A DNA stretch of 64,000 nt from Streptomyces capitiformicae (lineage in GTDB: Bacteria; Actinomycetota; Actinomycetes; Streptomycetales; Streptomycetaceae), in assembly GCF_002214185.1 (NCBI RefSeq), contig NZ_CP022161.1, positions 4,711,767 through 4,775,766 of the forward strand, written 5' to 3'. Below, piece by piece: positions 44,292 through 55,176 of the stretch. Made by a program: the position numbers and the translations under genes. Within the stretch, counting starts at the first letter, position 1, and the number at the start of each line of letters is the position of its first letter. Under the pieces are notes generated by a model, which did not search any database, was not told the origin of the DNA, and saw nothing but the letters and a program-made list of their open reading frames with translations.

Positions 44292-44455
44292 GGGAACGGT
44301 CGCCCGGGTCGCCGCCTCGGCGGCGGGACGCCGGCACAGGCAGATCACTGCCCTCCAAGCTCAGGAGGCCGTCACTGGGCTACTGCAGTTATGGCGCTTC
44401 TGATGGCTCGTGCTGGGGTGGTTGGATCAGCGCTTGCACTCGACAAAGGCGTCTC

Positions 44456-45040
44456 ATGGTGCGGCCACATGGGCTCACGGACGCGCAGTGGCAGAAGATC
44501 GAGCCGTTATTGCCCGCCAACGGCAAGCTCGGCGGGCAGTGGGCCGATCACCGCAGGGTGATCAACGGGGTGTTGTTCCCGGCCCGTACGGGTGCGCCCT
44601 AGCCGGATCTGCCCGAGGTACGGGCCCCCGGCGGACCACTTACGAGCGGCATCGCCGCCGGTCGGCGGACGGTACTGGTGGTGGATCCTGACGAGTTACA
44701 GATTGAGGCTGACACCGCCGACCCTGGCGTTGGCGTTGGCGTTGGCGTTGGCGTTGGCCAAGGCTGTCGCGCAGGAGAGCGGACAGCGCATACAGAAGGG
44801 GCGGTGAACATCGACTCCACTTCCTATTCCTACCGGGCTCACCAGCATGCGGAGGGGGCCCGTCGCCAGCCCTCGCGCGACTTCCCGCGAAAGGGAGCTG
44901 GTGCGTGTGTGGAGGCCGAGGGCCGGGAGGGGCTGAGGCGCTCACGGGGTGGACTGACCAGCGAGGTCCACATGCTGTCCGATGCTCGGGCCCCCGCTGG
45001 CCTGGCAGACGTCCGCTGGAGTGCGCATTGTCACCGCGGA
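44456..45040 (+). pseudogene. Decayed IS5-family transposase
   Basis: The N-terminal piece (44456-44602) reads GLTDAQWQKIEPLLPANGK and HRRVINGVLFPARTGAP, then stops. Beyond it, in another frame, come TYERHRRRSADGT and LQIEADTADP, a hexamer repeat, then VNIDS (first catalytic Asp), YRAHQHAEGARRQPSRDFPR and SRGGLTSEVHMLSDARA. The C-terminal part with the other catalytic residues is gone. At least two frameshifts, a repeat expansion and a 3' truncation make it nonfunctional. Confidence 0.8.
44726..44755. repeat. Five tandem ggcgtt hexamers inside the decayed transposase
   Basis: Five perfect ggcgtt units lie within the IS5-type pseudogene; read in frame they give Val-Gly repeats that have no place in the transposase family. 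Confidence 0.9.
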
Positions 45041-45227: not shown

Positions 45228-45704
45228 CTACTCGCGCGTCGCCCCCTCCGGCCACAACACGTGCACCGGGACCCCGTTCTGCTGGGCATAGGACACCACG
45301 TCGGCGGTGCCGCCGTAGCCCCATGCCGGTTTGCCGTCCCATACGGCGAGTAGTTCGTCGGACAGGCCGACGAGGATCTCGCTGCCTGCCATGTGAGCCT
45401 GAGAATCTGAGGCTGTCATGTCGGTGTGGTGTACCTCTGTCGCGTGGCGCAGCAGGTCGTCATAGACCGGCCAGTGAGCTTCGGGCAGGTTCTTGCGGTA
45501 TTGCTCGGCGGGTACTACGACTTCCAGGCTTCCCCCGTGCTTGAGTACCGCCTCCGCAAACCATGAATCCGGACCGTCGGCGATGCAGGAGATGCCGATC
45601 AACTCGGTTGGGTTCAAGTCGCGAATGGCTTCTTCGAGGAGTTGACGGACCTGCCGCTCGACTTCTCGGCTTAGCCCGCGATGGCCGGTGATCCCTACTC
45701 GCAT
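45228..45704 (-). CDS. SLOG/Rossmann-like small protein
   Basis: The 158-residue protein starts RVGITGHRGLSREVERQV and has GISCIADGPDSWFAEAVLKH, VVVPAEQYRKNLPEAH, a central SEILVGLSDELLAVWDGKPA and GGTADVVSYAQQNGVPVHVLWPEG. The G-I-T-G-H-R start and the G-G-T-A-D turn resemble the LOG/DprA-like nucleotide-binding (SLOG) fold. Members occur in signalling and conflict systems and sense or cleave nucleotides; the exact role is unknown. It lies 12 bases after the XRE-TPR regulator gene, in one operon, next to the RiPP genes, so a link to that pathway or to signalling by the regulator is possible. Confidence 0.7.
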   Translation of the reverse strand: MRVGITGHRGLSREVERQVRQLLEEAIRDLNPTELIGISCIADGPDSWFAEAVLKHGGSLEVVVPAEQYRKNLPEAHWPVYDDLLRHATEVHHTDMTASDSQAHMAGSEILVGLSDELLAVWDGKPAWGYGGTADVVSYAQQNGVPVHVLWPEGATRE

Positions 45705-45716
45705 GGACTGCTCCTC

Positions 45717-46955
45717 CTACAGGTAGACGCCGTGAAGGCGTTCATCGAAGTCACGGACCACCTTGGGTGGTGATGTCAGGGACAGGGATCGGCGTACCGC
45801 GCGTGAGCGTTCTACGATTCGGCCGGAGCGGTACTGGAGACCTGTATCCAGCGCTCTGGACGCCAGGGCGAAGGCGGCCTCGATTCTTCCGGCCGCGAGG
45901 TGGCCGGCGGCCAAGTCCAGGACAAGCAAGGCCCGTTGTTTCGCGTGGCCGGAGGTCAGCGCTGCGATGTCATCGTTGAGGACCCAGTCCGCGAGGCCCA
46001 AGCGGGCGCCGCAGGTGACACGGCATGAGGCCACCTTGTTCGCGTCGAACTGGAAGACCCATGGCCATGGTGGCGGATCTTCGTGCCTGATCTTCTCCGC
46101 CACGGCCCTGCTCCGCGTCAGTGCTCGGTCAGTGGCACGCTCGTCGCGACTCGCCGCATGGGCCAGCGCTTCGACGGAGCACAGCCATGCATCAGCCACT
46201 GCCGGCCGTTGCTCGCCCAGATATCGCCGTGCACTGCGCGCGAGGTTGAGTGCCTGTGCACCGTTCCCTGCGTGCGCTTCGAACTGCGCCAGGCTGCCTG
46301 CTTGATATGCCGCGAGCAGCTGATCCTGTGCGGCGCGCGCCGCCCGGATCGCCGAGCCGTACCAAGAGCGTGCCGACCCGTAGTCGCCCATGTCCCAGGC
46401 CAGCCACGCCGCCAGACTCGCTGCCTCACTACCTACGGCAGCCAACCGGGGACGTTGTCCGTCATCGGCGACGTCCCGCGTCACGTTTTGGATCAGCCGG
46501 ATGTGTGCATGGACAGCCTCGGCGAGATCACGTGACGGCGTCGAGCTGTCGAGTCTGCGATATGTTGCGGTGTTCAGCCGGAGGGCTGCTGCCTGGTTTC
46601 CCGTAGCGTCCCCGTTCGCGGCAATGCTCAGTATTGGGCTGGTCGCCGTCGCGGCCACACCACCTAGAAATGCACGTCGCTCCACTTGCTCAAATCCATT
46701 TCGCACCGTGCGTTGTTCGGCCAGTCCGACCATCCGGAGGGGGATGCCGAGATGGGCTGCTACCGCAGCCAGGGTGTCCCTGCTGTATGAACCAGTCCCG
46801 CGCTTCTCCAGTCGGGAGATCGCTGATTGCGAGAGCCCGCATGCCTCGCCCAACTGCTTCTGAGTCATGCGAGCTTCCTTCCGAACCAGCTCGATGACCC
46901 TTCCGTAGTCGCCTCTGCGAGACGCGTCGCTGATCGCCGGCGACTGCCAGTTCAT
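45717..46955 (-). CDS. XRE-family regulator with helical repeat (TPR-like) domain
   Basis: The 412-residue protein has a helix-turn-helix, TQKQLGEACGLSQSAISRLE near residues 31-50, then a region (about 90-115) with ERRAFLGGVAATATSPIL, and a long helical C-terminus that looks TPR-like: GDYGSARSWYGSAIRAARAA, GNGAQALNLARSARRYL, GRIEAAFALASRALDTGLQY. Such regulators are common beside actinobacterial RiPP and differentiation genes; the repeats may bind a peptide or protein partner. It is divergent from the HATPase gene and precursor operon, with 259 bp of promoter DNA between, so it is the likely regulator of the RiPP cluster. Confidence 0.9.
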   Translation of the reverse strand: MNWQSPAISDASRRGDYGRVIELVRKEARMTQKQLGEACGLSQSAISRLEKRGTGSYSRDTLAAVAAHLGIPLRMVGLAEQRTVRNGFEQVERRAFLGGVAATATSPILSIAANGDATGNQAAALRLNTATYRRLDSSTPSRDLAEAVHAHIRLIQNVTRDVADDGQRPRLAAVGSEAASLAAWLAWDMGDYGSARSWYGSAIRAARAAQDQLLAAYQAGSLAQFEAHAGNGAQALNLARSARRYLGEQRPAVADAWLCSVEALAHAASRDERATDRALTRSRAVAEKIRHEDPPPWPWVFQFDANKVASCRVTCGARLGLADWVLNDDIAALTSGHAKQRALLVLDLAAGHLAAGRIEAAFALASRALDTGLQYRSGRIVERSRAVRRSLSLTSPPKVVRDFDERLHGVYL

Positions 46956-47214
46956 CGGCTTCTCCCCACGCTACGAGCCTCGACCCACAATGCCACGAAT
47001 CCGTACTCGTACCCGCACGGTGCATATCCGCATGCAAGTACCGCGTCAGCTGATGTTCCCATGTGGATTCGGGGCGTTGACTGTCTGTCAGCCGCCGTGC
47101 GCAAGGGGCGGCAGCAACAGCCGCTGCACGTCTGGCGGTTGTCAGTTCCGAGGCCCTTTCCCTGATCTCCGTCGGGGCTGGAGTCGCAATTCCGACCGCA
47201 GAGGAGCAGTCCTC
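46956..47214. promoter_or_regulatory. Divergent promoter region of the RiPP cluster
   Basis: The 259-bp spacer contains a possible -35 TTGACT near 47081 with cagccg- and ctgtctgtcag-type short repeats around it, and no supported gene. Both the XRE gene and the HATPase-precursor operon must be controlled from here. Confidence 0.45.
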
Positions 47215-47715
47215 ATGATCCGCCGAGCCCGGATTGCCGTAACTGGTGCCCCGTCCGCTGTCGCCTTCGCAAGAGACCGTGTCATAACGCAGATTCGGGC
47301 GTGGGGTGTGCGGCTTGGCGAAGAGGGACAGGAAGCGATCAAGCTTGTCGCTTCCGAGCTGATCACAAACGCTGTCGTCCATGCTTCGGGCCTCGTCACC
47401 GTGGGGCTCTACCTCAATTGGGAACGGCTGCTCTTGGTCGTCCACGACTGCAACCCCGCTCCGCCGAGGCCTCGGGTCACCACGGAGGACGACGAAGGCG
47501 GCCGCGGCCTGGTCCTCGTCGAGCTTCTCGCCGCACGGCATGGCTGGGAAGCGACGAAAAACGGCAAGAAGGTCTGGGCGGAGTTCGACGTACCAGTGCC
47601 CACGCCAACCGCACGCGTACACGTTGGGGCTCTCCGCGCTCGTATGCGTGCCGCGATCCCGTACGCCTTCGAGTACGTCATTCCGGAGCGCTGTGCACGA
47701 GTGCCCGGCTTGTGA
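47215..47715 (+). CDS. HATPase_c (anti-sigma-factor kinase-like) protein
   Basis: The 166-residue protein has the GHKL ATP-binding motifs: N box ELITNAVVHA at 48-57, G1 in VVHDCNPAPP near 75-84, and G2 DEGGRGLVLVELLA at 93-106. There is no phospho-acceptor His, so it resembles RsbW/SpoIIAB-type regulators, which are very common in Streptomyces. It lies 22 bp before the RiPP precursor gene in the same direction and has a GAGGAG site before ATG 47215. It may regulate the cluster or belong to a wider switch with the XRE regulator. Confidence 0.88.
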   Translation: MIRRARIAVTGAPSAVAFARDRVITQIRAWGVRLGEEGQEAIKLVASELITNAVVHASGLVTVGLYLNWERLLLVVHDCNPAPPRPRVTTEDDEGGRGLVLVELLAARHGWEATKNGKKVWAEFDVPVPTPTARVHVGALRARMRAAIPYAFEYVIPERCARVPGL

Positions 47716-47737
47716 ACCACCTACCAAGGAGGCACCC

Positions 47738-48049
47738 ATGTTCGCCCACTCGGATCGGCTCCCCAGCGGGACGCCACTGCCGAATGGCATCAGTACCCCC
47801 ACACCGTGGGGTCTGCGGCGCATGGCGCCGTACCCGGCCTTTGCGCCTTCGTACGCCCGTGTCGAACTGGAGCCGGTGACACAGACCGGGCGCTACTTCG
47901 ACGCTGCCGGGCAGGTCATGGAGATGCCCGGACACGGGACCAGTACGGGCACCAACCCCGCGACCAACACCGGCAATCCCTCCGACGGTGCTGGTCCCGG
48001 TGGTGGCGGTGGCGGGGACCAGGACACGGGGAACGATAGCGACCAGTGA
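47738..48049 (+). CDS. Precursor peptide of an ATP-grasp-modified RiPP (graspetide type)
   Basis: The 103-residue peptide has a leader segment PTPWGLRRMAPYP (21-33) followed by YARVELEPVTQTGRYFDAAG, which matches, as I recall, the GRASP_targ family of ATP-grasp-modified peptides in actinomycetes. The core-like C-terminus is rich in Thr/Ser (GTSTGTNPATNTGNPSDG, 67-84) and, after a Gly-rich hinge (84-93), in Asp (GDQDTGNDSDQ). Thr/Ser hydroxyls and Asp side chains are the donors and acceptors for macrolactone bonds made by the ATP-grasp enzyme encoded next. A perfect AAGGAGG site precedes ATG 47738. Its stop overlaps the start of that enzyme gene. Confidence 0.88.
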   Translation: MFAHSDRLPSGTPLPNGISTPTPWGLRRMAPYPAFAPSYARVELEPVTQTGRYFDAAGQVMEMPGHGTSTGTNPATNTGNPSDGAGPGGGGGGDQDTGNDSDQ

Positions 48050-48996
48050 GTGACATGGGTTCGGTGCTGGTCGTCACCAATCTGGACGACCCCACGACCG
48101 ACCTGGTGATTGAAGAACTGCACGGCCGGGGTGTCCCGGTCGTGCGGTTCGACTCCGGGGACTTCCCGAGCACCCTGTCGTTCGCGGCCACTATCACGTC
48201 GTACGGGATGGAGGGGGCGCTGACCACGCCAACGCGTACGGCGGACCTGTCGCGAGTTCGATCTCTGTACTACCGCAGGCCCTCCGGGCTCACGTTCCCC
48301 CATCTGGACCATCAGACGGCCCGCTTCGCTGTTACACAGGCCCGTTACGGCCTCGGGGGCGTCATGGCTGCGCTGCCCGGTTGCCTGTACGTCAACCACC
48401 CGCATCGCATCGGCGACGCCGAGTTCAAGCCGTCCGGGCTTGCCGCCGCAGCCGCCTGCGGATTCCGGCTTCCGCCCACCCTGGTCACTTCTGACCCTGA
48501 TGCCGCTCGCGCTTTCATCAAGGCCCACGGGTCCGTGATCTACAAACCGCTGTCCACTCCGCTGTACCGGATCGACGGCGTCTCCTGCACGGTGGAGGCA
48601 CGAGAGGTCACTGCGGACGAGATCGACGACGCGGTGGCCGGTACCGCTCATCTCTTTCAGCAGCGGATCGACAAGACCGGTGACGTGCGTGTGACCGTCA
48701 TCGGCGATCAGGTGTTCTGCATCCGCATCGACTCGGATCTCCTGGACTGGCGTACCGACTACTCGCGGCTCCGGTACAGCGTGGTGGAACCACCGTCAGG
48801 CATCTCCGAAGCCCTACGCGCCTATCTCGATCACTTCAGGCTTGTCTTCGGTGCTTTCGACTTCGCGGTGGACCGCCAGGGGCAATGGTGGTTCCTGGAG
48901 TGCAACCCCTCCGGGCAGTGGACGTGGCTGGAACCGGAGACCGGGCTGCCGATGGTGGCGGCGATGGCAGACCTCCTGGAGAGGAAGACGGGATGA
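48046..48996 (+). CDS. ATP-grasp peptide ligase (RiPP maturase)
   Basis: The 316-residue protein is an ATP-grasp enzyme of the peptide-maturase group: N-terminal SVLVVTNLDDPTTDLVIEEL, a central KPSGLAAAAACGFRLPPTLV, ATP-binding Lys in VIYKPLS near 165, acidic GDVRVTVIGDQVFCIRID, and the metal-binding WFLECNPSGQWTWLE at 282-296. It would activate Asp/Glu side chains of the precursor with ATP and join them to Thr/Ser or Lys. GTG 48046 overlaps the precursor's stop (GTGA); ATG 48055 is an alternative. The methyltransferase gene overlaps its end by four bases. Confidence 0.93.
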   Translation: MSDMGSVLVVTNLDDPTTDLVIEELHGRGVPVVRFDSGDFPSTLSFAATITSYGMEGALTTPTRTADLSRVRSLYYRRPSGLTFPHLDHQTARFAVTQARYGLGGVMAALPGCLYVNHPHRIGDAEFKPSGLAAAAACGFRLPPTLVTSDPDAARAFIKAHGSVIYKPLSTPLYRIDGVSCTVEAREVTADEIDDAVAGTAHLFQQRIDKTGDVRVTVIGDQVFCIRIDSDLLDWRTDYSRLRYSVVEPPSGISEALRAYLDHFRLVFGAFDFAVDRQGQWWFLECNPSGQWTWLEPETGLPMVAAMADLLERKTG

Positions 48997-50117
48997 ATGA
49001 CAAGGAGCTGAGGGTACGGCTCGTCGAGCGACTGGCCGACAGTGGACATCTGCGCACGATGCCATGGCGGGAGGCCGTGTCTGCCGTGCCGCGTCACGAG
49101 TTCCTGCGCGGGGGTTTCTTCCAGCAGGTTGACGGCTCGACGCCTACGGCATGGGCGCCGGTCATGCCGGACGATCCGCGGTGGCTGGAGGGGTGTTATG
49201 AGGACGCCTCCTTGGTGACGCAGATCGCCGGGACGATCGTGCCCGGGGATATTCGTGGGGAGATCATGCGCGCTCCCACCTCGTCGAGCACCATGCCCGG
49301 CCTCGTCGTGCGCATGCTCGAAGACCTCGAAGTCGATGACGGCCACCGGGTCCTGGAAATCGGCACGGGTACTGGATACTCCACAGCCCTCATGTGCCAC
49401 CGACTCGGCGACGACATGGTGACGTCCGTCGAGGTCGACGAGAGCGTGTCGACCCGTGCCCGTATCGCGTTGGGGCAGTGCGGGTTCACACCGAACCTGA
49501 TCGTCGGCGATGGCCTTGCCGGGTACAAGGACGGGGCGCCTTATGACCGGGTGATCGCCACCTGTGGACTCCTCACCGTCCCAGGCGAGTTGATCGAGCA
49601 GACTCGCCCCGGCGGGACCATCCTCGTCACGCTCTGCGGATGGCTGTACGCATCCGAACTGGCCCGCCTCACCGTCCACGAAGACGGCACCGCATCCGGT
49701 CGGTTCCTCGGCGGACAGATCTCCTTCATGCTTGCCCGGCCGCAACTGCCGCCTCCGCTCGGATTGCTCCCCGATCTCGACGAGGGCGACGAACATCCCG
49801 CATTGATCGGTGCCGATGTGATCAACGACTGGAACACCCGGTTCGTCGCGCAACTCGCCGCCCCGGGCGCCCAGCACGTCAGCCTGAACCGCGACGACCG
49901 CACAGAGCACCTCTTCCTCGACGTCGACAGCGGCGCATGGGCCGTACTTTGGGGGAAAGGGGGCCAGTGGACGGCCCGGCAGGGCGGACCGTCCCGCATC
50001 TGGGACGCCATCGAGGCGCGCGTCAGCCGGTGGCGCGCTGCCGGGGCACCGCCGGTGGAGCGGTTCCAGATCGTGGTCAACGCCGATCGCCCGTCGATCA
50101 CCTGGCCCGGCGGCTGA
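48993..50117 (+). CDS. PIMT-like O-methyltransferase of the RiPP cluster
   Basis: The 374-residue protein has a class I SAM motif RVLEIGTGTGYSTALMC near 119-135 and the signature of protein L-isoaspartate methyltransferases, RAPTSSSTMPGLVVRMLEDL near 93-112. The C-terminal 150 residues (after GGTILVTLCGWL) are specific to the ATP-grasp-associated form. In known relatives (for example the fuscimiditide type) such enzymes methylate an Asp of the ATP-grasp product, which then closes to an aspartimide. ATG 48993 overlaps the ligase stop, so the genes are coupled. A terminator follows at 50155-50182. Confidence 0.92.
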   Translation: MNDKELRVRLVERLADSGHLRTMPWREAVSAVPRHEFLRGGFFQQVDGSTPTAWAPVMPDDPRWLEGCYEDASLVTQIAGTIVPGDIRGEIMRAPTSSSTMPGLVVRMLEDLEVDDGHRVLEIGTGTGYSTALMCHRLGDDMVTSVEVDESVSTRARIALGQCGFTPNLIVGDGLAGYKDGAPYDRVIATCGLLTVPGELIEQTRPGGTILVTLCGWLYASELARLTVHEDGTASGRFLGGQISFMLARPQLPPPLGLLPDLDEGDEHPALIGADVINDWNTRFVAQLAAPGAQHVSLNRDDRTEHLFLDVDSGAWAVLWGKGGQWTARQGGPSRIWDAIEARVSRWRAAGAPPVERFQIVVNADRPSITWPGG

Positions 50118-50182: not shown

Positions 50183-50335
50183 CTTCGTCATCACTGCGTC
50201 TCGTCGTAGCAGGTAACACCGCCTCAACTCCCCTTCTCCTGAAGAGATTTCGCGTGCATGAAGAAGGTGTGTCCAAAGGGTTGACCGGTCAACAAGTGGG
50301 CTCGTACCTTCCTGTCGGTTGAAAATTTTCAGCCA

Positions 50336-50348
50336 TCTTGCAGCAAGA
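50336..50348 (+). promoter_or_regulatory. MalR-type operator at the alpha-amylase gene
   Basis: TCTTGCAGCAAGA is a perfect 13-bp dyad (6-bp arms, A centre), 60 bp before the amylase start. The half-site TCTTGC is shared with malE. Reg1/MalR-type control of Streptomyces amylases acts at such sites. Confidence 0.75.
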
Positions 50349-50408
50349 ATCGGCAACCGATCTTGCCTGAACCCTCACTGGAACCCCTTCAATGGAGAAG
50401 GACCCCAC

Positions 50409-51791
50409 ATGGCCAGCAGAACCCTCTCCGGTGCGCTCGCGCTCGCCGCGGCCGCGTCGATCGCGCTCGTCGTCCCCGCCGGCAGCGCGTACGCCTCCCC
50501 GCCCGGCGCCAAGGACGTCACCGCCGTCCTGTTCGAGTGGAACTTCGCCTCGGTCGCCAAGGAGTGCACCAACACCCTCGGGCCGAACGGCTACGGGTAC
50601 GTCCAGGTCTCCCCGCCGGCCGAGCACATACAGGGCTCGCAATGGTGGACCTCGTACCAGCCCGTCAGCTACAAGATCGCCGGACGCCTCGGTGACGCCA
50701 CCGCTTTCAAGAGCATGGTCGACACGTGTCACGCGACCGGCGTCAAGGTCGTCGTCGACACGGTCATCAATCACATGTCCGCAGGCAGTGGGACCGGCAC
50801 CGGCGGCTCGTCGTACACGAAGTACAACTACCCCGGCCTGTACTCGTCGTTCGACTTCGACGACTGCACGGCCACCATCAGCGACTACACCAACCGCACG
50901 AACGTCCAGAACTGCGAGCTCGTGGGGCTCGCCGATCTGGACACCGGCGAGGACTACGTCCGCTCGGCCATCGCCGGGTACATGAACAGCCTCCTCGGCT
51001 ACGGCGTCGACGGCTTCCGTATCGACGCGGCCAAGCACATCCTGGCCGCCGACCTGGCCAACATCAAGTCCCGCCTCAGCAACACCTCGGTCTACTGGAA
51101 GCAGGAGGCCATCTACGGCAGTGGTGAGGCCGTGCAGCCGAGTGAGTACACGGGGAACGGCGACGTGCAGGAGTTCCGTTACGCCTTCGACCTCAAGCGG
51201 GTCTTCAACAACGAGAACCTTGCCTATCTGAAGAACTACGGCGAGGGCTGGGGCTACATGAGCAGTGGCGTCTCCGGGGTCTTCGTCGACAACCACGACA
51301 CCGAGCGCAATGGCAGCACCTTGAACTACATGGACGGCGCCAACTACACGCTCGCCAACGTCTTCATGCTCGCCTACCCGTACGGCGCCCCCGACATCAA
51401 CTCCGGCTACGAGTTCTCCTCCATCGACGCCGGCCCACCCAACGGCGGTACCGTCAGCGCCTGTTGGCAGGACGGCTGGAAGTGCCAGCACGCCTGGCCG
51501 GAGATCATGCGCATGGTCGCCTTCCGCAACGCCACCCGGGGCGAAGCCGTCACCAACTGGTGGGACAACGGCGCCGACGCCATCGCCTTTGGACGTGGCA
51601 GCAAGGGCTACGTCGCCATCAACCACGAGTCGAGCAGCCTCAGCCGTACGTACCAGACGTCCCTTCCGGCCGGCGCGTACTGCAACGTGCAGAACAACAC
51701 GACGGTGACCGTGAACAGTTCGGGTCAGTTCACCGCAACCCTCGGCGCCAACACGGCCCTGGCGATCTATGCGGGGAAGTCCAGCTGCTGA
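50409..51791 (+). CDS. Secreted alpha-amylase (GH13)
   Basis: The 460-residue enzyme has a Sec signal peptide ([22 protein letters not shown], cleaved after about residue 29) and a GH13 catalytic domain of the streptomycete/animal type: [29 protein letters not shown] (region I), GFRIDAAKH with Asp near 205, KQEAIYG with Glu near 233, and [10 protein letters not shown] with Asp near 297. A short C-terminal beta domain ends in [19 protein letters not shown]; the starch-binding CBM20 seen in many relatives is absent. It digests starch outside the cell to feed MalEFG. ATG 50409 follows GAGAAGGA; the longer frame to 50319 is rejected. A MalR-type dyad lies upstream. Confidence 0.96.
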
Positions 51792-51805: not shown

Positions 51806-51850
51806 GAAAGTACTTTCCGTTACTTTCAAGCCTCTTGCTGAAAAGCTTTC
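51806..51850 (+). promoter_or_regulatory. Promoter-region dyads of the second amylase gene
   Basis: GAAAGTACTTTC (51806-51817) is a perfect 12-bp palindrome; 16 bases later tcttgctgaaaagc gives an imperfect TCTTGC half-site like that of MalR operators. The region lies about 100-60 bp before the TTG start. Confidence 0.5.
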
Positions 51851-51912
51851 GGCGGCGATACGGTCGCGCGGGGTCGGACCCGAAGAGCCGTACACCGCAA
51901 GGAGTCCACGTC

Positions 51913-54900
51913 TTGATACCGAGATGGCCGGTGCCGTCGAGCCGCCGTACCGCCCACGCTGGACGAGTGGCCGCAGTCACCGTGACCGCGCTGACCGCGG
52001 CGCTCGTCCAGCCCCTGGCCGCCGGAGCCGCGACCCCGCCCGCACCCCCGTCCGACGCGGAGCTGGCCGCCGAGCCCGCCCGTCACGACCTCACCCGGGA
52101 GCAGTTCTACTTCGTCCTGCCGGACCGTTTCGCCAACGGTGACAAGGCCAACGACAAGGGCGGACTGACCGGCTCGCGCCTCGCCACCGGGTACGACCCC
52201 ACCGACAAGGGCTTCTACCAGGGCGGCGACCTCAAGGGCCTGACCAACCGGCTCGACTACATCAAGGGCCTGGGCACCACGGCCCTCTGGCTCGCGCCCC
52301 TCTTCAAGAACCAGCCCGTCCAGGGCACCGGCGAGAACGCCTCCGCCGGCTACCACGGGTACTGGATCACCGACTTCACCCAGGTCGATCCGCACTTCGG
52401 GACGAACAAGGACCTGGAGACCCTTATCTCCAAGGCGCACGCCAAGGGCATGAAAGTCTTCTTCGACGTCATCACCAACCACACCGCCGATGTCGTCGAC
52501 TACGAGGAGAAGTCCTATGACTATCTGTCGAAGGGGGCCTTCCCTTACCTGACGCAGGACGGTGAGCCCTTCGACGACGCCGACTACGCCGACGGGACCA
52601 AGACCTTCCCGAAGGTCGACCGGGACTCCTTCCCGCGTACACCCGTCGTCCCGGCCGCGAAGAAGGACCTCAAGGTCCCCTCCTGGCTCAACGACCCCAC
52701 GATGTACCACAACCGGGGCGACTCCACCTGGGCCGGTGAGTCCGCCACGTACGGCGACTTCGTCGGGCTCGACGACCTGTGGACCGAGCGTCCCGAGGTC
52801 GTCGAGGGCATGGAGAAGATCTACAAGAGGTGGGTCAGGGACTTCGACATCGACGGCTTCCGGATCGACACCGTGAAGCACGTCAACACCGAGTTCTGGA
52901 ACCAGTGGGCCACCGCCCTCGACGCGTACGCGGCGAAGAAGGGCCGCGACGACTTCTTCATGTTCGGCGAGGTCTACTCGGCGGACACGTCCGTCACCTC
53001 CCCGTACGTCACCCAGGGCCGACTCGACTCCACGCTGGACTTCCCCTTCCAGGACGCGGCACGCTCGTACGCCTCCCAGGGCGGCAGTGCGCGGAAGCTG
53101 GCCGCCGTCTTCGGGGACGACTACAAGTACACGACCGACAAGGCCAACGCGTACGAGCAGGTCACCTTCCTCGGCAACCACGACATGGGCCGGATCGGGA
53201 CCTTCCTCAAGCAGGACGACCCGAAGGCCACCGATGCCGAACTGCTCGCCAAGGACAAGCTCGCCAACGAACTGATGTTCATCAGCCGGGGCAACCCCGT
53301 CGTCTACTACGGCGACGAGCAGGGCTTCACCGGCGCGGGCGGCGACAAGGACGCCCGCCAGACGCTGTTCGCCTCCAAGGTCGCCGACTATCTCGACGAC
53401 GACCAGCTCGGCACCGACCGCACCCACGCCACGGACGCGTACGACACGAGTGCGCCGCTCTACAAGCAGATCAGTGCTCTCGCCAAGCTCCGCAAGGCCA
53501 ACCCCGCCCTCGCCGACGGCGTCCAGACCGAGCGTTACGCGGAAGACGGCGCGGGCATCTACGCCTTCTCCCGCACCGACGCCAAGACCGGCACCGAGTA
53601 CGTCGTCGCCTTCAACAACGCGGACGACGCCAAGGCGGCGACGTTCGCGACCGGTTCGGCAGGGATGACCTTCAAGGGGGTCTACGGCACGACCACGAAG
53701 GTGAAGAGTGACTCGGATCGGAGGGTGACCGTCACCGTCCCGGCCGGCTCGGCGATCGTCCTCAAGGCCACCGGCAAGCTCGCCCGGCCCGCCACCAAAC
53801 CGTCCGTCACCCTCAAGGCCCCGGCCGCCGGCGCCACCGGCACCGTCGACATCACCGCCGATCTCGACGGCGGACAGCTCAACCGCGTCGTCTTCGCCGC
53901 CCAGATCGGCAACGGCAAGTGGCGGACCCTCGGCTCCGCCGACCACGCTCCGTACCAGGTCACCCAGACCATCGGCGAGCACGTACCGGCCGGAACCGCC
54001 CTGCGGTACAAGGCAGTTGTGATCGACTCGGCCGGACGTACGGCGAGCGCCACGGCCACCTCCACCACCGGCACCCCGCCCGCCCCCGAGCTCCCGACCG
54101 CCTCCTCGCGCGACTACGCGATCGTCCACTACAAGCGCGCGGACGGCGACTACACCGACTGGCGGCTGTACGCGTGGGGCGACATCGCCGACGGCGAGGG
54201 GACGACCTGGCCAGAAGGGCACGACTTCATCGGCCGTGACGCGTACGGCGCCTTCGCCTACGTCAAGCTCAAGCCCGGCGCCTCGAACGTCGGTTACCTC
54301 GTCATCGACAAGGACGGCAACAAGGACGTCTCCGCCGACCGTTCGATCGACGTGACGAAGACGGGCGAGATCTGGGTCGAGCAGGGCAAGGAAGCCGTAC
54401 TGACGGAGAAGCCCGACTACCCCGCCCAGGACACGTCCAAGGCCGTCCTCCACTACCATCGCGCCGACGGGAACCACGACGGCTGGGGCCTGCACGTCTG
54501 GACCGGCGCCGCCAACCCGACCGACTGGTCGAAGCCCCTGGAGCCGGTGCGGACCGATGCCTATGGCGCGGTCTTCGAAGTGCCGCTCAGGGACGGTGCC
54601 ACCAGCCTCAGCTACATCATCCACAAGGGCGACGAGAAGGACCTCTCCAGCGATCAGTCACTCGACCTCAAGGCCAATGGCCACGAGGTGTGGCTGCTCG
54701 GCGGCCAGGAGAAGTACCTGCTCCCGCAGCCGACCGGTTCCGCCGCCCTCGATCTGACCACCTCCCAGGCGATCTGGATCGACCGCGACACCCTCGCCTG
54801 GAACGGCAACGACACCGCCGCCTCCACTCAACTCCTCTCGTCCCGCACCGGCTCGATCAAGGTCACGAACGGCACCCTCACCAGCACCGACGAGCGCTGG

Positions 54901-55176
54901 CTTCGCCTCACCAGGTCGACCCTCACCGACGCCCAGAAGGCCAAGTACCCGCACCTGGCGTCGTACACCGCCTGGACCGTCGACCCACGCGACCGCGACC
55001 GGGTCCGCGAGGCCCTGCGCGGCCAACTCGTCGCCTCCCAGCGCGCCGCCAACGGGGCGGTCCTCGCGGCGACGGGCGTGGACTCTACCGTCAGGAACGC
55101 GTCGTACGAAGCGGAATCGGCCACGTTCGCCGTTCCGGGGCGGACCGTGGCGGTATTCGCACGATCCGACCGGTAG
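51913..55176 (+). CDS. Secreted amylase with pullulanase-associated domains, apparently C-terminally shortened
   Basis: TTG 51913 follows AAGGAG by eight bases and opens a signal peptide (VAAVTVTALTAALVQPLAAG). The 1087-residue protein has a GH13 domain with EQFYFVLPDRFANGD, GYHGYWITDF, Asp near 317 in GFRIDTVKH, Glu near 352 in FMFGEVYS and Asp near 423 in FLGNHDMG. Two CBM41/PUD-like domains follow (about 734-830, AIVHYKRADGDYTDWRLYAW; about 842-940, AVLHYHRADGNHDGWGLHVW), then a pullulanase N2-like region. In longer relatives a second, pullulanase GH13 domain comes next; here the sequence jumps near residue 1053 (NGAVLAATGV) to VDSTVRNASYEAESATFAVP, which looks like the extreme C-terminus. 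Debranching activity is therefore probably lost. Confidence 0.88.
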   Translation: MIPRWPVPSSRRTAHAGRVAAVTVTALTAALVQPLAAGAATPPAPPSDAELAAEPARHDLTREQFYFVLPDRFANGDKANDKGGLTGSRLATGYDPTDKGFYQGGDLKGLTNRLDYIKGLGTTALWLAPLFKNQPVQGTGENASAGYHGYWITDFTQVDPHFGTNKDLETLISKAHAKGMKVFFDVITNHTADVVDYEEKSYDYLSKGAFPYLTQDGEPFDDADYADGTKTFPKVDRDSFPRTPVVPAAKKDLKVPSWLNDPTMYHNRGDSTWAGESATYGDFVGLDDLWTERPEVVEGMEKIYKRWVRDFDIDGFRIDTVKHVNTEFWNQWATALDAYAAKKGRDDFFMFGEVYSADTSVTSPYVTQGRLDSTLDFPFQDAARSYASQGGSARKLAAVFGDDYKYTTDKANAYEQVTFLGNHDMGRIGTFLKQDDPKATDAELLAKDKLANELMFISRGNPVVYYGDEQGFTGAGGDKDARQTLFASKVADYLDDDQLGTDRTHATDAYDTSAPLYKQISALAKLRKANPALADGVQTERYAEDGAGIYAFSRTDAKTGTEYVVAFNNADDAKAATFATGSAGMTFKGVYGTTTKVKSDSDRRVTVTVPAGSAIVLKATGKLARPATKPSVTLKAPAAGATGTVDITADLDGGQLNRVVFAAQIGNGKWRTLGSADHAPYQVTQTIGEHVPAGTALRYKAVVIDSAGRTASATATSTTGTPPAPELPTASSRDYAIVHYKRADGDYTDWRLYAWGDIADGEGTTWPEGHDFIGRDAYGAFAYVKLKPGASNVGYLVIDKDGNKDVSADRSIDVTKTGEIWVEQGKEAVLTEKPDYPAQDTSKAVLHYHRADGNHDGWGLHVWTGAANPTDWSKPLEPVRTDAYGAVFEVPLRDGATSLSYIIHKGDEKDLSSDQSLDLKANGHEVWLLGGQEKYLLPQPTGSAALDLTTSQAIWIDRDTLAWNGNDTAASTQLLSSRTGSIKVTNGTLTSTDERWLRLTRSTLTDAQKAKYPHLASYTAWTVDPRDRDRVREALRGQLVASQRAANGAVLAATGVDSTVRNASYEAESATFAVPGRTVAVFARSDR

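Follow-up and report, generated by a model that had tools for sequence, protein, structure and literature searches.

A very probable graspimiditide gene cluster of Streptomyces capitiformicae, with a predicted nested-ester hairpin and a divergent NsdA-family regulator

In a review, Zhu and Link (PMC13001092) name the products of the biosynthetic systems considered here graspimiditides, or group 13 graspetides; they quote cluster counts of 962, 1326 and 1432 by three groups and give four characterised members, namely fuscimiditide, amycolimiditide, albusimiditide and SsfA. Fuscimiditide carries Thr3-Asp22 and Thr7-Asp18 esters and an aspartimide in its loop; for amycolimiditide a similar stem-loop is described, in which four nested esters form from the loop outward (PMC13003496, PMC12291112). 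For the imiditides, which are presumed to be linear, the described clusters consist of a precursor and a PIMT homologue only (PMC13001092). The present work concerns a stretch of 64,000 nucleotides of Streptomyces capitiformicae (contig NZ_CP022161.1, positions 4711767 to 4775766), hereafter the window, to which all coordinates refer; the host genome is 10.99 Mb long and forms a single contig. Three overlapping genes in the window, coding for a precursor peptide, an ATP-grasp ligase and a PIMT-type methyltransferase, very probably constitute a group 13 graspetide (graspimiditide) system of the TIGR04186/04187/04188 type.

The identity of the system follows from the fact that all three genes pass the curated cut-offs of one three-gene system. 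The TgmA-type precursor (103 aa, 47738-48049, forward strand, ATG start at 47738) reaches 88.1 bits with TIGR04186 and 63.7 bits with Pfam PF14408, the cut-off being 25 bits in both cases. The TgmB-type ATP-grasp graspetide synthetase (316 aa, 48046-48996, forward strand, GTG start) scores 444 bits with TIGR04187, against an NCBIfam cut-off of 350, and the TgmC-type O-methyltransferase of the PIMT/PAMT kind (374 aa, 48993-50117, forward strand) scores 462 bits with TIGR04188, against 380, as well as 87.6 bits with PF01135. Precursor and ATP-grasp genes overlap by exactly four bases, and so do the ATP-grasp and PIMT genes. The ATP-grasp protein carries the motifs KPLS, DVR and ECNPSG, and its relatives in the PDB include 9bou, CdnC and AMdnB, while the methyltransferase shows EIGTGTG at position 122 and, with its C-terminal extension, WRAAGAP at position 347. 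The latter is an instance of a WxxxGxP motif that occurs in 66 of the 77 loci of an 80-locus set for which a TgmC reading was available, and is missing in 11. An earlier note on this DNA had proposed an ATP-grasp ribosomally synthesised and post-translationally modified peptide with a PIMT-type methyltransferase, and the NCBIfam scores bear this out; its gene set, both overlaps and the HATPase gene upstream are all confirmed in the DNA, and the Thr/Ser and Asp positions and the Gly-rich segment 84-93 lie where it had put them. Its label "graspetide/imiditide-like" was apt in the first half and loose in the second, given the presumed linearity and smaller gene set of the imiditides. These compounds, or type I pamtides, share with the window a PIMT homologue that forms an aspartimide (PMC13001092), and identity with them is ruled out by the ATP-grasp gene that overlaps the precursor gene.

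Systems of this type are common in the genus, of which 214 out of 295 genomes have a TIGR04186 precursor, 211 of them above the cut-off. A set of 113 loci of relatives was fetched through their ATP-grasp or precursor, and tblastn detected TgmA in 109, TgmB in 113 and TgmC in 106 of them, the first two counts being a product of how the set was built; a TgmC hit is missing at L002, L003, L006, L029, L057, L083 and L112. Distances between TgmA proteins follow those between TgmB proteins closely (r=0.91 over 28 loci, with 0 of 2000 permutations as high). The host genome itself codes for three ATP-grasps of the TIGR04187 family, one of them just under the cut-off. The other two (L002 and L003) stand beside short precursors ending in TTSTAGSxTHFDD, and tblastn gave no TgmC match within about 1.5 kb on each side of either; these two loci are a different graspetide type.

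The precursor divides into a leader of approximately residues 1-65 and a core of approximately residues 66-103, a predicted boundary set by alignment. The predicted core, HGTSTGTNPATNTGNPSDGAGPGGGGGGDQDTGNDSDQ, occupies 47933-48046 on the forward strand and was delimited by conservation and by register in the homologues; it contains T68, S69, T70, T72, T76, T78, S82, D83, D94, D96, D100 and D102 and ends in Q103, with residues 84-93 rich in Gly. When the core peptide was searched by itself against the PDB, no match was returned at E values up to 10. A core was obtained from 110 of the 113 loci (L002, L003 and L078 gave none of this type), and L051 and L085 were dropped, their tails being read as frameshifted, which left 108 loci and 95 distinct cores. 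An ending in D-x-D-Q, as in the window, characterises 55 of these (65 loci), and their stem is fixed: Thr at core positions 3, 7, 11 and 13, the four Asp and the final Gln are present in 55/55, and core position 5 is Thr in 41 and Ser in 14. The conservation of Thr and Asp among homologues, which the earlier note had named as a check, thus held throughout this class. The loop from the residue equivalent to T78 to the first acceptor varies from 8 to 16 residues among the 55, with the window's value of 15 in 26 of them, and a loop Asp is present in 53, as Asp-Gly in 48. The 26 distinct cores of 38 residues also conserve S69 and S82, although these two fall outside the predicted stem register.

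That register is expressed by a constant sum of donor and acceptor positions, which equals 172 for T70-D102, T72-D100, T76-D96 and T78-D94; when the two halves of the core were shuffled separately, four rungs were equalled in 5 of 1000 shuffles. Cores outside the D-x-D-Q class have other spacings that often still meet a constant sum (for example L105-L108). The spacing of the window's core fits four nested esters around a 15-residue Gly-rich loop, as far as sequence can indicate. Several loci depart from the common pattern. In Streptomyces olivaceus NRRL B-3009 (L035) Asn-Gly stands at the modification site instead of Asp-Gly, and a TgmC match is present; Asn-Gly is able to give the same succinimide through deamidation. 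In Streptomyces albus NRRL B-1811 (L104) the precursor is without the loop Asp and the ATP-grasp match is cut short, and the precursor tails of L051 and L085 are out of frame; for L104, L051 and L085, decay or assembly error is possible.

The order of maturation, the connectivity of the esters and the aspartimide site D83-G84 can be proposed by analogy with the characterised relatives. TgmB would bind the precursor leader and, with ATP, make acyl phosphates of the Asp side chains near the C-terminus; hydroxyls of Thr in the core's N-terminal half would then attack the activated Asp residues and give nested omega-esters, zipping from the loop outward in the order T78-D94, T76-D96, T72-D100 and T70-D102. 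It is plausible that a fifth ester joins T68 to the carboxylate at the C-terminal Q103. The finished hairpin would be recognised by TgmC, which would methylate D83 in the 15-residue loop, and the methyl ester would close on the nitrogen of G84 to form an aspartimide, possibly opening to isoaspartate. A close likeness is to amycolimiditide (AmdA/AmdB/AmdM), with its four nested Thr-Asp esters, stem-loop, loop aspartimide and methylation after cross-linking, features that are predicted for the window; amycolimiditide differs in having a 29-aa core and a 10-residue loop, and no side-to-end link is mentioned in the descriptions consulted (PMC13001092, PMC13003496, PMC12291112). Fuscimiditide (ThfA/ThfB/ThfM) likewise has its Thr residues first, an aspartimide in the loop and its Asp residues last, with equal sums (T3+D22 = T7+D18), but only two esters, a 22-aa core and a 10-residue loop. 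The earlier note had regarded the order of donors, linker and acceptors as unlike that of known systems and the ring topology as perhaps new; this part does not stand, as fuscimiditide already has Thr donors, a loop aspartimide and Asp acceptors. Loops of graspimiditides are given as 10-12 residues, and ThfB is reported to modify loops of 4 to 12 residues fully and loops of 24 and 72 less efficiently (PMC12291112), so that the 15-residue loop of the window is a difference in degree.

An additional point of comparison is SsfA/SsfB/SsfM of Streptomyces sp. F-3 (PMC10787088), a system which shares with the window the precursor, ATP-grasp and PIMT genes and an Asp-Gly site. The published account describes up to five-fold methanolysis of the GluC fragment 63-97 of SsfA, whose last 12 residues hold four Asp and no Glu, and on the basis of methanolysis and tandem mass spectrometry it proposes that the carboxylate at the C-terminus serves as an acceptor; it also mentions a fragment 66-97, Asp81-Gly82 and Asn83. 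The frame of one of the related loci, L061, whose TgmB is 75% identical to that of the window, agrees with these positions in having E62, K65, D81-G82-N83 and four Asp with no Glu in its last 12 residues. Fragment 66-97 is one that we take as tryptic, as K65 precedes it in L061. From the reported positions, and not from the SsfA sequence as such, we infer that SsfA has a sequence of the L061 type. If so, its donors T68, T70, T72, T76 and T78 would be numbered as in the window, and it would share the D-x-D-x-x-x-D-x-D-Q tail and the suggested fifth link to the C-terminus, while differing in a 9-residue loop with the site at D81, in place of the 15-residue Gly-rich loop with the site at D83.

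These comparisons bear on several competing explanations of the locus. The presence of a PIMT domain might be taken to mean an ordinary protein-repair enzyme that lies by chance beside a graspetide pair, which is extremely unlikely in view of its TIGR04188 score well over the cut-off (462 bits against 380), its C-terminal extension with WxxxGxP, the four-base overlap with the ligase gene and the occurrence of a TgmC match at 106 of the 113 loci of relatives. The geometry of the esters calls for more discussion. A topologically new graspetide with crossed or parallel esters would be compatible with the palindromic 2-4-2 spacing, which suits parallel as well as mirror pairing, and the maturase ThfB is known to be promiscuous (PMC12291112). 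When mirror and parallel pairing were compared over the 95 distinct cores, 85 were tied, mirror pairing won in seven and parallel pairing in three (L030, L032 and L109). A half-swap test, in which the donor half of one clade was joined to the acceptor half of another (two distinct cores being unclassed in this comparison), failed to tell true pairings from false ones, owing to the high density of Thr in the cores; donors of clade A, for instance, reached 4.66 with acceptors of clade D and 3.75 with their own. Furthermore, the register attains p<0.01 in only 34 of the 95 cores and p<0.05 in 59, the cores being related rather than independent, and the loop Asp is absent from two of the 55 D-x-D-Q cores (L035 and L104). 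All of these results count against the nested hairpin with its loop aspartimide. The sequence data by themselves do not prove the nested direction, which, given the 85 ties, rests on the published structures of relatives. Still, the review describes for all four characterised relatives a stem-loop whose loop contains the methylation site (PMC13001092), and among the ten cores without a tie mirror pairing prevails in seven, which leaves a new topology very improbable.

Within the graspimiditide assignment, the number of esters is a closer question. The register partner of T68 is position 104, one past the last residue, which corresponds to the C-terminal carboxylate, and T68 and the terminal Gln are invariant in 55/55 D-x-D-Q cores. 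It can be proposed, tentatively and at somewhat below an even chance, that the peptide of the window belongs to a large Streptomyces sub-branch of pentacyclic graspimiditides, in which the peptide's own C-terminal carboxylate replaces a missing fifth Asp, so that T68 would hold the tail and no free end would be left; such peptides would have a fixed five-rung stem with a freely varied loop (8-16 residues) and exchangeable NsdA-family regulators, and the constant-sum rule would give the connectivity of SsfA. Yet efforts to determine that connectivity are reported to have been unsuccessful (PMC10787088), and the L061 frame has a Leu codon, not Met, where residue 1 would be. The same system with only four Thr-Asp esters, a free C-terminus and a T68 kept for leader processing or structure is a sub-case of the graspimiditide assignment and comes close to an even prospect: amycolimiditide is described with four esters, and the C-terminal link of SsfA is merely suggested by methanolysis and tandem mass spectrometry in its source (PMC10787088). 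Against a four-ester product speak the invariance of T68 and of the terminal Gln, the exact register of T68 just beyond the last residue, and the last residue of the distinct cores without D-x-D-Q, which is Asp in 37 of 40.

The surroundings of the cluster were compared in the 64 of 80 tgm loci that measure 12.7 kb or more (the 16 shorter ones being left out) and in a second set of 20 tgm regions (14 kb), with 40 regions of 13 kb, taken from the 20 genomes of the second set at a distance of about 300 kb, and 20 LanC regions, drawn from some of these 20 genomes plus one further genome (G000), as controls. In the window, a gene for an NsdA-family HTH-TPR regulator (412 aa, 45717-46955, reverse strand; NF053720 214 bits, cut-off 75) lies upstream of the operon and divergent from it, across an intergenic region of 259 bases (46956-47214). 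Genes of this family occur in 30/64 and 8/20 tgm regions versus 0/40 random and 1/20 LanC regions, figures to be read with two reservations: the profile was seeded with three tgm-locus proteins and may favour tgm regions, and the 64-locus set and the random controls come from different genomes. In all 30 cases of the 64-locus set, the only set for which orientation was tabulated, the gene is upstream and divergent. Counting any NsdA-family or HTH protein of at least 230 aa gives 46/64 and 14/20 tgm regions versus 1/40 random and 4/20 LanC regions, and the HTH profile alone gives a weaker contrast (34/64 and 11/20 versus 4/20 LanC; p 0.0084 and 0.024). Matches to the family number 15 to 46 per genome (21 genomes, among at most 50 candidates scored in each), and we estimate that, at this abundance alone, no more than a few per cent of 13-kb regions would contain one. 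Of four HTH-TPR proteins checked with NF053720, those of the window, L105 and L037 exceed the cut-off and that of L080 gives no match. Among the neighbours of graspetide ATP-grasps, Makarova et al. (PMC8939145) list HATPase, HTH-DUF5753 and TPR proteins, and they describe the role of the TPR proteins as unclear; no literature linking NsdA with graspetides was found, in a search that missed most subscription papers.

The recurrence of an upstream, divergent regulator raises the idea that it is an RRNPP-like receptor and the peptide a quorum-sensing signal, and the weak fold matches of the regulator model do include PlcR-PapR and Rap. Co-evolution with the adjacent peptide, measured by a Mantel test, was chosen as the mark of such a receptor. 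Regulator distances correlate with those of TgmB at r=0.10 over 30 loci, a value that 195 of 2000 permutations attained, and with those of TgmA at r=0.10 over 28 loci (171 of 2000), and four of the eight locus pairs with a TgmB distance below 0.15 have an NsdA distance above 0.6. In L038, L040 and L045, TgmB is about 90% identical and the NsdA-family regulators only about 17-24%; the same regulator is kept in the close pairs L041-L047, L046-L048, L069-L094 and L087-L092. The AlphaFold model of the regulator, built with 7 sequences, has a pLDDT of 77.7 (other models 67-72) and is all-helical with TPR-like pairs, and its fold matches are generic TPR proteins, none reaching E 0.001. A receptor role is therefore unlikely: because regulator distances track neither TgmB nor TgmA, the regulator probably does not sense the peptide specifically.

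Two smaller genes flank the regulator gene. A HATPase_c_2 (anti-sigma-like) protein (166 aa, 47215-47715, forward strand; PF13581 40.9 bits) is encoded by the first gene of the apparent operon, a gene that ends 22 bases before the precursor start. The HATPase was rejected as a specific partner of the system, its frequency near tgm genes (17/64 and 4/20, versus 5/40 random and 4/20 LanC regions; lowest p 0.07) showing no significant enrichment, and it is probably a regulatory protein not specific to the system. The range of 47215-50117 drawn in the earlier note thus encloses the three genes of the system, but starts at this non-specific HATPase and leaves the better supported NsdA-family neighbour outside. 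On the reverse strand, 12 bases separate the NsdA-family gene from a 158-aa companion (45228-45704), upstream of which it lies. The companion has no Pfam match over the cut-off; its best AlphaFold model reaches pLDDT 86.6, and Foldseek places YpsA (2nx2, E 1.4e-5) first, followed by DprA and LOG. The modelled fold is SLOG-like (YpsA/DprA/LOG-like), the five model versions differing widely in confidence (86.6 to 41.6). By tblastn this companion was found in seven of the 113 loci (L038, L041, L043, L047, L061, L072 and L085). The partner of the regulator varies, being GNAT-like in several loci (one representative scores 20.6 bits against a cut-off of 20.7) and SLOG-like or another small protein elsewhere, and it is possible that the NsdA-family gene and its variable companion form a general regulatory module.

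Inspection by eye of the outer regions revealed a short open frame at 44391-44602 which resembles the start of an IS5-type transposase and may point to an old insertion beside the cluster. Directly downstream of the cluster, a secreted alpha-amylase (50319-51791, forward strand) and a pullulanase-like gene (51835-55176, forward strand) were likewise recognised by eye. In Streptomyces ureilyticus (L043) the same six genes stand in the order seen in the window, with a precursor that is 95% and a regulator that is 89% identical; an amylase, 83.5% identical to that of the window, lies further downstream of the cluster, with other genes between. From this sequence comparison we infer that the source species and Streptomyces ureilyticus have probably inherited the cluster as a unit, located at one chromosomal region.

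The product of the cluster is most likely a ribosomally made peptide that several esters staple into a hairpin and that is modified at one aspartate. Streptomyces natural products of this type are known but functionally unexplained; the biological function of graspimiditides is described as still to be found (PMC13001092). As the claim of a novel topology falls, two things remain: the regulatory association and a modest refinement, namely a side-to-end link as the fifth rung of the stem. The family would gain a branch whose loop is long and Gly-rich and whose clear ester map would also predict the connectivity of SsfA. The divergent NsdA-family regulators that keep changing from locus to locus suggest that the control is a general one, developmental or nutritional, and not that of a dedicated peptide receptor, and their strong association with these loci may offer a handle for switching such clusters on.

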